Assembly: GCF_000279145.1 (NCBI RefSeq)
Contig: NC_018178.1
Span: 1,550,001-1,614,000 of the forward strand
DNA: 64,000 bases
Origin: Melioribacter roseus P3M-2
Lineage (GTDB): Bacteria; Bacteroidota; Ignavibacteria; Ignavibacteriales; Melioribacteraceae
Reading direction: 5' to 3'
The position numbers and the translations under genes are program-made. The notes below the pieces were generated by a model. It was not told where the DNA came from. It saw only the letters and a list, made by a program, of their open reading frames with translations, and did no database searches. Of the stretch, positions 15,513 through 22,117 are shown piece after piece; position 1 is the stretch's first letter; every line of letters begins with the position of its first letter.

Positions 15513-16424
15513 TTAAAACAGGTCTTCAATCGAAAGATACCGTTCGCCCGTGTCGTAATTGAAAGTAAGGATTCTTGAACCTTCGGGAATATCAGGCAGC
15601 TTTTTGTTGATTGCCGCAAGCGAGGCGCCTGAGGAAATACCTGCAAAAAGCCCCTCCTCTTTAGCCGCTCTGCGTGCAAATTCAAAGGCTTCTTCTTTAG
15701 TCACCTGAATGGCGCCTTCGATTAAAGAGGTGTCGAAAATTTGAGGAATAAATCCGGCGCCGATGCCTTGAATCGGATGTGGACCGGGTTTACCTCCGGA
15801 AATAACGGGGGAATTTTCCGGCTCTACGGCAAATACTTTCAGATTCGGAAATTTTTCTTTCAGAACTTTCGAAACGCCGGTAATATGTCCGCCGGTTCCC
15901 ACGCCCGTAATCAGATAGTCGAAACCTTCGGGAAAGTCGTTTAATATTTCCTGCGCGGTGGTTTTAACGTGAATTTCGACGTTCGATTGATTTTCGAATT
16001 GCTGAGGTATCCATATATTGGGATTCGAAGCCGCTAGTTCTTTTGCTTTTTCGATGGCTCCTTTCATTCCGAGTTCGCGCGGGGTCAGTTCGAATTCCGC
16101 GCCGTAGGCAGCCATAATTTTGCGGCGTTCGATCGACATCGATTCCGGCATTACAAGTATAATCCTGTAGCCTTTTACCGCCGCAACCATTGCAAGCCCG
16201 ATTCCCGTGTTGCCCGAAGTCGGCTCGACTATTATGCTGTCGGATTTAAGGATTCCTTTCTTCTCGGCGTCTTCAATCATTGCAAGAGCAATTCTGTCTT
16301 TAATGCTGCCGCCGGGATTCGACCTTTCGAGTTTTACCCACACTTCGTATTTATCGCCGAATAATCGGTTTAATTTGAGATGCGGCGTGTTGCCGATTGT
16401 CTGGAGTATATTGAAAGCTTTCAT
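15513..16424 (-). CDS. cysK: Cysteine synthase (O-acetylserine sulfhydrylase)
   Basis: PLP-dependent enzyme making cysteine from O-acetylserine and sulfide. 303 residues, start [20 protein letters not shown]. The PLP lysine is in [11 protein letters not shown] (about residue 42), the substrate loop is [12 protein letters not shown], the phosphate-binding loop is [11 protein letters not shown], and GISSGAS lies near the C-terminus. Encoded 19 bp downstream of the serine acetyltransferase, so the pair forms a cysteine-synthesis operon. CysM-type activity cannot be excluded from sequence alone. Confidence 0.95.
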
Positions 16425-16443: not shown

Positions 16444-17301
16444 TTAGATTACAAAATCGAGTGTTTCTTCGAATGGTCTGGAAGACCTGATGCGTACTTC
16501 GCTTTTGTTATAAACCACAGAATTTGGAGGAATGCTTTTGATTATCCAAGAGTTTCCCCCGATAACGGAATTTCTTCCGATTACTGTGTTGCCGCCTAAT
16601 ATGACCGCCTGGGAATAGATTACCACGTCGTCTTCGATTGTGGGATGGCGTTTTTGCTGGGCGAGATTTTTGTCGACGCTAAGGGCGCCTAAAGTTACGC
16701 CTTGATAGAGTTTCACGTTTTTTCCTATAACTGTAGTTTCGCCTATGACTATTCCCGTGCCGTGATCGATAAAAAACGGACATCCGATTTGAGCTCCGGG
16801 ATGAATGTCGATTCCGGTCACCTGATGAGCGTGTTCGGTAAGAATGCGTGGAATAATCGGAATTTTCAATTCATATATTGCGTGCGCGAGACGATAAATT
16901 ACAATTGCGCGAAAGCCCGGATATGCGAGAATTACTTCGTCGATACTTTCTGCCGCCGGGTCGCCTTTGTAAATAAATTCGGCGTCTTCCCACAGCATCT
17001 CGTTTATTGCCGGCAGCTTCTTTATAAATTCCGCGCTTTTCTCAGCGGCGTTTACAGGAGCCATTCCGTTCAGCAATTTAATCAGTTGTATAAAATCTCT
17101 CTTGATCAATTGGAGCTTTGAAAGAATGTCTTCTTCCGTATAATAAATTTTGGAAGAAAAATGAGGAAAGAGAAAATCGATTATACCTTCCAGAAAAGCT
17201 ATCGACTCGTTTTTGAGGGACGACGTGCACGCGTGCGTTTGCCGTCTCGTTAAAATATTTTTTGCAAAATCTGTAAAATTAGTCCTTTCCCAGGATTCCA
17301 T
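16444..17301 (-). CDS. cysE: Serine O-acetyltransferase
   Basis: Makes O-acetylserine from serine and acetyl-CoA, the substrate of the adjacent cysteine synthase. 285 residues, EpsC/CysE type: helical N-terminal half, then the left-handed beta-helix with [17 protein letters not shown] (catalytic His region), [20 protein letters not shown], and hexapeptide repeats [13 protein letters not shown]. Upstream, 54 bases before its ATG, ends a small ORF packed with Cys codons, which suggests cysteine-responsive control of the operon. Confidence 0.95.
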
Positions 17302-17355
17302 TTTTTATGCCCTTTAATAATTTTTATAAATTAATTTTTTGGGGTTAAGTATGTA

Positions 17356-17445
17356 TTAACAACAGCAACAAGCGCAGTTGTTGGAGCGACAGCAGTTAAG
17401 CTGAAGTGAGAATGAAGAGTGCGATATGGAAGCAAAAGTTTTCAT
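17356..17445 (-). CDS. Cysteine-rich leader peptide of the cysE-cysK operon
   Basis: A 29-codon ORF on the minus strand, ATG at 17445 and TAA at 17356-17358, ending 54 bases before the cysE start. The peptide begins MKTFASISHS and has seven Cys in its last twelve residues: Cys18, Cys19, Cys24, and Cys26-Cys29 directly before the stop. That density, placed directly in front of the cysteine-biosynthesis operon and in the same direction, is what one expects of a cysteine-sensing leader: ribosomes stall on the Cys codons when Cys-tRNA is scarce. The mRNA around the Cys codons can fold (CAACAA with TTGTTG, loop CTGCGC). I see no classical terminator after it, so translational coupling or ribosome shielding is as likely as transcription attenuation. 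No clear SD. Confidence 0.7.
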   Translation of the reverse strand: MKTFASISHSSFSLQLNCCRSNNCACCCC

Positions 17446-17506
17446 ATAAATTCGAATCACGTTTTTAAAAATGCGTTAATAATCCGAAAAGTTCAAGAAC
17501 GGGCAT

Positions 17507-17557: not shown

Positions 17558-17770
17558 TTATTTGACAACTTTTACGTCTTGAGCCTGAGGTCCTTTCGGT
17601 CCGTCTCCGACGGTAAATTCAACCTGTTGACCTTTTTCGAGAGTTTTGTATCCGTCAACCTGAATCGAAGAGAAGTGAACGAATACATCTCCTCCTTGCG
17701 ATCGCTCAATAAAACCGTAACCTTTTGTGGCATTAAACCATTTAACGGTTCCGTTTTCACGTTCTGCCAT
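17558..17770 (-). CDS. csp: Cold-shock domain protein
   Basis: A 70-residue single-domain CspA-type nucleic-acid chaperone: [17 protein letters not shown] contains RNP1, [10 protein letters not shown] is RNP2, and it ends [14 protein letters not shown] 17770 (M-A-E-R-E-N) is the family-like start with a ggagtc SD; the frame remains open 18 codons upstream, which I take as 5' UTR. Monocistronic, with its own terminator. Binds single-stranded RNA/DNA, melting secondary structure. Confidence 0.95.
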
Positions 17771-17901
17771 AAAAAAAGACTCCTTAAAAATTTTACTTAC
17801 TTCTTGATTGTAGGCAGAACGCATCTAAAAAAATTATATAATTTAGAGCATCTGCTCTACGGGCGAAACTTAAGAATAAATTCAATAATTTCAAAAATAA
17901 T

Positions 17902-22042: not shown

Positions 22043-22117
22043 GGGGTCGTAGTTCAGTTTGGTTAGAACGCCTGCCTGTCACGCAGGAGGTCGCGAGTTC
22101 GAGTCTCGTCGGCCCCG
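22043..22117 (+). tRNA. tRNA-Asp (anticodon GTC)
   Basis: Complete cloverleaf: acceptor ggggtcg/cggcccc, D-arm with tagttcagtttggttagaa, anticodon stem cctgc/gcagg with loop ctGTCac, T-arm gcgag-ttcgagt-ctcgt, discriminator G at 22117. No full CCA is encoded (GCA follows). Immediately followed by a terminator. Its 3' half is duplicated downstream, and derivative copies lie upstream and 26 kb away. Confidence 0.97.

Follow-up and report, generated by a model that had tools for sequence, protein, structure and literature searches.

Why should a reading frame of 29 codons that closes on a run of cysteine codons stand directly in front of a gene for cysteine biosynthesis? We addressed this question at the cysE locus of Melioribacter roseus P3M-2, within a 64,000-nt stretch of the single 3,300,414-base contig NC_018178.1 (the window, in which positions are counted unless another location is named). 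The initial annotation had read the frame as a sensor of cysteine supply that acts by ribosome stalling. The elements of the locus are as follows.

17356-17445, minus strand: putative leader ORF, translated as MKTFASISHSSFSLQLNCCRSNNCACCCC and then the stop; 29 codons; stop codon TAA at 17356-17358.
17359-17394, minus strand: Cys-codon cluster CCRSNNCACCCC, with 7 Cys in 12 codons, the last of which adjoins the stop; proposed stall site.
17302-17355, minus strand: spacer of 54 nt from the leader stop to cysE, without a detected intrinsic terminator.
17328-17355, minus strand: C-rich, G-poor stretch (C6, G0) directly 3' of the leader stop; proposed as a site of Rho entry or as another single-stranded element.
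17310-17315, minus strand: AAAGGG, resembling a Shine-Dalgarno (SD) sequence, 8 nt before the cysE start.
16444-17301, minus strand: cysE, serine O-acetyltransferase (NCBIfam), start at 17301; the proposed regulated gene.
15513-16424, minus strand: cysK, cysteine synthase A (NCBIfam TIGR01139, above cut-off), 19 nt after cysE.
17466-17496, minus strand: weak candidate promoter TTG-N20-CATTTTTA, resembling TTGAACTTTT...CATTTTTG in loci L003, L198, L199 and L200.

Translation and coordinates bear out the basic description given in the initial annotation, namely a 29-codon ORF with seven Cys codons, 54 nt before cysE and on the same strand. All seven lie among the last 12 codons, beginning with a Cys-Cys pair at residues -12/-11, and an alternative in-frame GTG start is present at 17460. 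The arrangement places a short ORF immediately ahead of a biosynthetic gene and, within that ORF, a cluster of codons for the end product. The best NCBIfam match of CysE, TIGR01172 (serine O-acetyltransferase), scored below cut-off and the related NF041874 EpsC model above it. Judging from their spacing, cysE and cysK probably form one operon. Directly upstream of the leader lies a cold-shock protein gene (17558-17824, minus strand) with its own terminator; the terminator nearest to the leader, located by eye at 17530-17507, ends this gene, and a similar one (AAGCGG...CCGCTTTTTTT) was also seen by eye ahead of the leader in L003, L061 and L094. In the promoter scan, 93 of 200 base shuffles scored as well as the window candidate, and the 13 of 40 family loci that scored at least 5 of 6 mostly did no better than base shuffles. 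None of the Rfam covariance models reached its gathering score at the leader; the sole match in the window at that score was a tRNA gene (22043-22117, plus strand).

The initial annotation had considered seven Cys codons among twelve to be very improbable by chance, and shuffling agreed. When the 350 nt upstream of cysE were shuffled with dinucleotide composition preserved, and the best Cys count per 12 codons was taken from ORFs with a stop at -260 to -35, none of 20,000 shuffles reached 6 and the best value was 5, found once, against a real count of 7. The bare motif TGYTGYTGYTGYTRR is not rare; its place is rare. It matched once in the 3.3-Mb genome, at the leader (reversed control pattern, two matches), and it is no marker by itself because it matched in 175 of 197 genomes of the class. 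The pattern Y..TC.C-stop matched in 5 of 194 genomes (reversed control, 1), three of the matches being known cysE leaders, one (L163) lying within another gene and one (L167) unassigned. Of the ten sites of TGYTGYTGYTRR in the M. roseus genome, two end short ORFs, both ahead of sulfur genes. Five other short ORFs of the same genome, each with three Cys close to the stop (L233, L235, L237, L239, L242), were also inspected; four were located inside longer ORFs, and no sulfur gene was recognized behind any of the five.

Conservation in close relatives was what the initial annotation had staked its reading on, and conservation was found. Among 79 Melioribacteraceae genomes, each counted once, 42 carried this cysE at E<=1e-40, and 40 of these 42 loci had, at the same place, a leader whose tail contains Cys codons; genomes G506 and G454 had no leader before cysE. 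The remaining 37 genomes had no cysE of this kind at the same threshold. The CysE of L061 is 94% identical to that of the window. Loci reached through a cysK search carried the leader in 9 of 10 cases, or in 8 of 9 loci not previously seen, given that L178 repeats L063; because the loci are related, such locus counts are not independent events and the shuffles overstate the case. Nine further loci were cysK paralogs or distant; the gene was recognized in five, one of which (L197) had a 19-residue ORF with 3 Cys upstream, and the other four had no upstream Cys ORF.

A first survey, with a threshold of at least 4 Cys in 12 codons in an ORF ending 35-260 nt before cysE, covered a wider range of lineages. 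Such ORFs were found at 9 of 17 family loci (including L062, named only as Ignavibacteriales), 7 of 20 loci of other Ignavibacteria, 4 of 14 of Chitinophagaceae and similar named Bacteroidota, and 1 of 53 of other Bacteroidota (L111), the last group having numbered 64 before 11 loci without a recognized cysE ORF were dropped. Shuffles passed this threshold at 0.4-1.4%, and the antisense strands of the four groups gave 0, 0, 0 and 1. At a threshold of at least 5 Cys, 8 of the 17 family loci qualified and none of the controls did (0 of 1,700 shuffles, 0 of 17 antisense strands, 0 of 53 loci of other Bacteroidota). To look for such an ORF in other Ignavibacteria and Bacteroidota was a check that the initial annotation had proposed; most of the sampled cysE loci of the other Bacteroidota had no such leader. 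Leaders are not absent from that last group, since L161 and L162, of its family f37, have leaders with 3 Cys each, below the 4-Cys threshold. Three pairs of loci are identical: L061/L093 over 400 nt upstream, and likewise L063/L213 and L075/L111, the last pair being split between two groups in the first survey. The starts of the L009 and L002 leaders were shifted to a downstream ATG. That the ORF arose by chance is suggested by the frequency of CCCC-stop as a bare motif in the genomes searched, and the shuffle test and the loci reached through cysK speak against it; chance alone as the source of the putative leader is contradicted by conservation in 40 of 42 loci, and we regard this explanation as practically negligible.

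It is mainly the end of the peptide that is conserved. The 40 family leaders fall into two classes. The poly-Cys class (25 of 40) has 3 to 7 Cys among its final 14 residues, with tails such as VCCCCCC, ICCCCC, NNCICCCN and SACCCCCC before the stop. The CIC class (15 of 40) has only two tail Cys and ends approximately in GY(F/L)xTCIC-stop, for example GYFSTCIC, GYLFTCIC, GYFYTCLC and GYYYACIC; its consensus is G-Y-[FLIY]-x-[TSA]-C-[IMLV]-C-stop, with Tyr in 15 of 15 when the motifs are lined up, and in one member the motif is separated from the stop by two further residues. Of the 40 leaders, 29 have Cys as the final sense codon; in the others the last Cys is followed by one residue in nine, by two in one and by six in one. 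Both Cys codons are used (TGT 94, TGC 59). With one leader taken per genus (8 genera for poly-Cys, 12 for CIC), stop-anchored identity between genera over the last 8 residues was 0.36 (81/224) for the poly-Cys class and 0.63 (335/528) for the CIC class, and in the two preceding 8-residue blocks it was 0.08-0.13. Since identity is concentrated in the last 8 residues, it is the end and not the whole of the peptide that matters, as would be expected of a leader. Codons were also compared within eleven selected pairs of related leaders, some loci entering two pairs. For the Cys codons among the final 8 residues, 33 comparisons were identical, 6 synonymous and 6 replacements, and the other codons gave 16, 12 and 15. 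A twelfth pair, L204/L006, was set aside for a premature stop inside the Cys run of L006 (G049), a natural variant in which TGA shortens NCCCCC-stop, as in L204, to NCCC-stop. The sister species differs from the window at 3 of the 5 Cys codons of this 8-residue end, each time by a synonymous change.

A short Cys-rich peptide with a tail motif conserved in 15 loci could also be a small cysteine-rich protein in its own right, for example a metal-binding one. Its N-terminal part is not conserved, however, its spacing to cysE is nearly fixed, a like tail occurs ahead of a second sulfur operon, and the two leaders scanned against NCBIfam gave no match, so that a protein of this kind is highly improbable.

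The second sulfur operon lies elsewhere in the same genome, where a poly-Cys leader, MKNVLLSRRKEKYSSQTKTLSYTLLMPSSMRACACCC and then the stop (ending ...RACACCC-stop), is encoded at about 988,965-989,078 on the plus strand. Its stop precedes a DUF2061 gene by 74 nt, and this gene is followed by genes for PAPS/APS reductase (cysH), CysD, CysN, siroheme synthase, a NirA-like sulfite/nitrite reductase, an Rrf2 regulator, a second cysteine synthase, an O-acetylhomoserine/O-acetylserine sulfhydrylase and a ThiF protein; we infer that all of these form one operon. Upstream of the poly-Cys leader there is another, mixed Cys/Met leader (ending ...MICCNNCMMRQVTSRRRD-stop) with a terminator of -16.1 kcal/mol. 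The additional elements, all outside the window, are these.

G000:C1, about 988,780-989,078, plus strand: tandem Cys leaders (loci L253 and L254), the Cys/Met leader with terminator and then the terminator-less poly-Cys leader.
L263, 1060-1174; L265, 1081-1179; L266, 2509-2608 (minus strand): SAM-I riboswitches behind the Cys/Met leader (Rfam).

The presence of a second poly-Cys leader before sulfate-assimilation genes makes cysteine sensing much more likely. In the family, 12 of 79 genomes had cysH at E<=1e-40, with 13 loci. An upstream terminator was found in 11 of the 13, after leaders such as NCMCMMM, TCMCMMK, DCCMC and ACCMCC (that of L262 has, by eye, a single Cys among Met codons), and a terminator-less poly-Cys leader in 8 of 13 (L254-L260, L262). 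In L263, L265 and L266 the poly-Cys slot holds a SAM-I riboswitch (RF00162, 69.5-86.7 bits; 8 of the 13 loci searched) and a second terminator. Because a SAM-I riboswitch occupies it in three relatives, the slot of the terminator-less leader appears to be a regulatory slot. L261 has neither a terminator-less poly-Cys leader nor a SAM-I riboswitch, and the upstream sequence of L264 is too short to judge the second slot. L257 (G545) and L258 (G505) come from different genera and share the same leader peptide and DUF2061 start before cysH, by either recent transfer or contamination. Among 27 further cysH loci, 18 had a recognized ORF and none of these a leader at the 4-Cys threshold; in the other 9 the ORF was not recognized.

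Leaders with terminators also occur ahead of cysE, outside the family. Of 14 leader loci chosen there, 10 had a strong terminator (-12.7 to -23.6 kcal/mol, equaled by 0-1 of 30 shuffles), namely L066 (Foetidibacter), L069 (Parafilimonas), L073 and L074 (Bacteroidetes), L161 and L162 (Bacteroidota family f37), and L010, L017, L019 and L030 (Ignavibacteria); L018, L022 and L098 were without a terminator and L075 had a poor one. The L162 leader mixes Cys and Met codons (CNMCCMM). In each of the ten, a competing copy upstream can pair with the 5' arm of the terminator. The numbers of shuffles, of 500, that did at least as well as this copy were 4 (L066), 5 (L069), 0 (L073), 48 (L074), 13 (L161), 11 (L162), 42 (L010), 1 (L017), 158 (L019) and 92 (L030), that is, 13 or fewer in six of ten loci, and the better of these putative leaders look like textbook attenuators.

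A cysteine-responsive leader is well supported by comparison, because the tail is conserved, a second leader exists and some related lineages have Cys leaders that carry strong terminators. As judged from sequence comparison, the ORF is very probably the gene of a leader peptide in a cis-acting, cysteine-responsive control element of cysE-cysK. The conserved Cys tail and the second poly-Cys leader therefore favor the sensor proposed in the initial annotation, which we would word as follows. A ribosome would read the leader before cysE-cysK. When charged tRNA-Cys is scarce it would stall on the Cys codons adjoining the stop, and the stalled ribosome would keep the downstream genes on; when cysteine is ample it would finish the leader and leave, and expression would fall. 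Translation of the ORF, stalling at scarce Cys-tRNA and the on-when-cysteine-short direction are all parts that we infer.

How would the stalled ribosome act on cysE? The form of control seen in those 10 of 14 chosen loci outside the family, transcription attenuation through an intrinsic terminator between leader and cysE, is very unlikely for the window. No intrinsic terminator was found between the leader and cysE there, as the initial annotation had also noted, and the family at large offers 3 of 40 loci with a weak candidate that reaches -6 kcal/mol (-6.1 to -8.8). The classical trp-type combination of an intrinsic terminator and an alternative antiterminator is absent from the window leader.

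The initial annotation had suggested a translational or Rho-linked mechanism instead. In translational attenuation, the spacer would fold over the cysE start unless that start is kept open by a ribosome that has stalled on the Cys codons or at the stop. The spacing is nearly constant (47-68 nt, median 54, in 25 poly-Cys cysE loci), an SD-like 4-mer is present in 27 of 40 family loci, and papers citing the mycobacterial polycysteine work speak of translation in their available text. In the window, CCC after the leader stop can pair with GGG before cysE, and stronger anti-SD pairing (-8.2 to -9.5 kcal/mol) is predicted in L003, L002 and L094. Across 10 loci, however, matched pairing was no better than permuted pairing (duplex energies, p 0.59). 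With a ribosome mask on the last Cys codon, opening the start became cheaper by over 1 kcal/mol at few of the 14 loci, and the effect was clear at L003 and L004. A 30-nt mask placed one codon beyond the stop reduced this cost by 1.2-3.3 kcal/mol in L001, L002, L094, L003, L004 and L005; the window belongs to these six loci. Because the effect changes with mask position, the result depends on the assumed footprint, and because the mask beyond the stop frees the start in six loci, a longer ribosome footprint would help the translational model. RNAalifold gave no consensus structure in the 25 poly-Cys regions, the 15 CIC-type regions or 7 loci of one genus, and a weak structure in 4 loci of another genus; by eye, several loci had small inverted repeats in the region of the stop codon, which are not a general feature. 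Relief of SD sequestration is supported in part, in a few loci and not generally, and we regard a translational effect on cysE initiation as the main alternative to the Rho-linked form, somewhat less likely than it.

The Rho-linked form has a precedent in E. coli tnaC, where a ribosome at the leader stop blocks Rho. The tnaC leader is a nascent-peptide sensor of tryptophan and has a longer spacer. Control at the leader stop codon, and the proposal that Rho is blocked next to it, would be common to both systems; the sensing of tryptophan by the nascent peptide and the longer spacer set tnaC apart, and for the leader studied here Rho action is a proposal. If the ribosome stalled on the last Cys codons, it would shield the beginning of the C-rich stretch; if it stalled at the stop, it would shield a putative C-rich site of Rho entry immediately 3' of it, as in tnaC. 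Base composition is the evidence that points this way. In the 28 nt after the stop, C exceeded G in 39 of 40 family loci (mean difference 4.6), compared with 22 of 53 position-matched loci of other Bacteroidota (mean 0.04). The same excess followed the stop in 8 of 8 terminator-less leaders of cysH operons (summed C 43, G 5), and 26 intergenic controls of the window gave C 117 and G 92. A Rho gene is present in the genome, and 54 nt is a short spacer for a Rho site. We put a tnaC-like Rho block forward as the last step tentatively, at slightly less than an even chance.

The two-Cys tails (15 of 40 leaders) fit simple tRNA limitation less well. It is a speculative and rather unlikely suggestion that the CIC-class tail arrests the ribosome at the stop as a nascent peptide and directly detects cysteine or a precursor, in the way that TnaC detects tryptophan, the poly-Cys form being its tRNA-limited sister. 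If this reading were true, a single family would contain the transition between two sensing modes; alongside it stands the sulfate operon, ahead of which a terminator-less poly-Cys leader follows a Cys/Met attenuator.

Leaders of this kind are already known. According to the available text of Seliverstov et al. 2005 (PMC1262725), candidate cys leaders occur in Mycobacterium, Propionibacterium acnes and Bifidobacterium longum, in keeping with the statement in the initial annotation that polycysteine leaders precede mycobacterial sulfur genes. These leaders share with ours a short ORF before cys/cbs genes, Cys runs near the stop and the lack of a terminator hairpin, and the architecture of the two matches; for the actinobacterial leaders that paper suggests a Rho/tna-like mechanism and poly-Y sites, citing tnaC as the model for the mycobacterial ones. 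They belong to another phylum, no sequence relation is shown and the poly-Y motifs are not conserved; unlike them, the Melioribacteraceae leaders have C>G in 39 of 40 loci, a GYxxTCIC-stop class and tandem arrangements. Polycysteine sORFs make mycobacterial genes cysteine-responsive (PMC13236596, PMC9094748 and PMC9031893, in the portions available). Those of Canestrari et al. 2020 are reported to have contiguous Cys codons likewise and to be leaderless, with cysteine-responsive attenuation of downstream genes in M. smegmatis, whereas for the leader described here the response to cysteine is predicted. In Rhodobacterales, uORFC-8-2 before cysS (Brewer et al. 2021, PMC8632094, available text) resembles it as a uORF with tandem Cys codons and proposed tRNA-Cys sensing, and differs in having two Cys codons inside a stem, an intrinsic terminator, another gene and another phylum. 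For the Bacteroidota, the accessible text of PMC9723704 gives clues for leader-peptide attenuation of flavobacterial amino-acid operons and does not name cysteine there, that of PMC7366714 refers to leader-like sORFs in Bacteroides, and the accessible parts of PMC2965389, PMC11109978, PMC8305728 and PMC4833913 mention no cysteine leader. The literature searched, with most subscription papers outside its scope, thus yielded cysteine leaders in Actinobacteria and a cysS uORF in alphaproteobacteria, and no described cysteine leader in Bacteroidota or Ignavibacteria. Within that literature, in the parts accessible, the lineage, the GYxxTCIC tail, the near-fixed spacing, the conserved C-rich tail, the tandem combination and the exchange with a SAM riboswitch are without precedent in print.

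How terminator-less poly-Cys leaders act was left open in PMC1262725, in its available text. The Melioribacteraceae offer a natural set of variants, with poly-Cys and GYxxTCIC tails in one family, and their relatives add outputs with and without a terminator, and tandem pairs in which a SAM riboswitch is substituted. This natural set therefore makes two questions testable, namely how a terminator-less leader acts and whether a nascent chain may sense cysteine.
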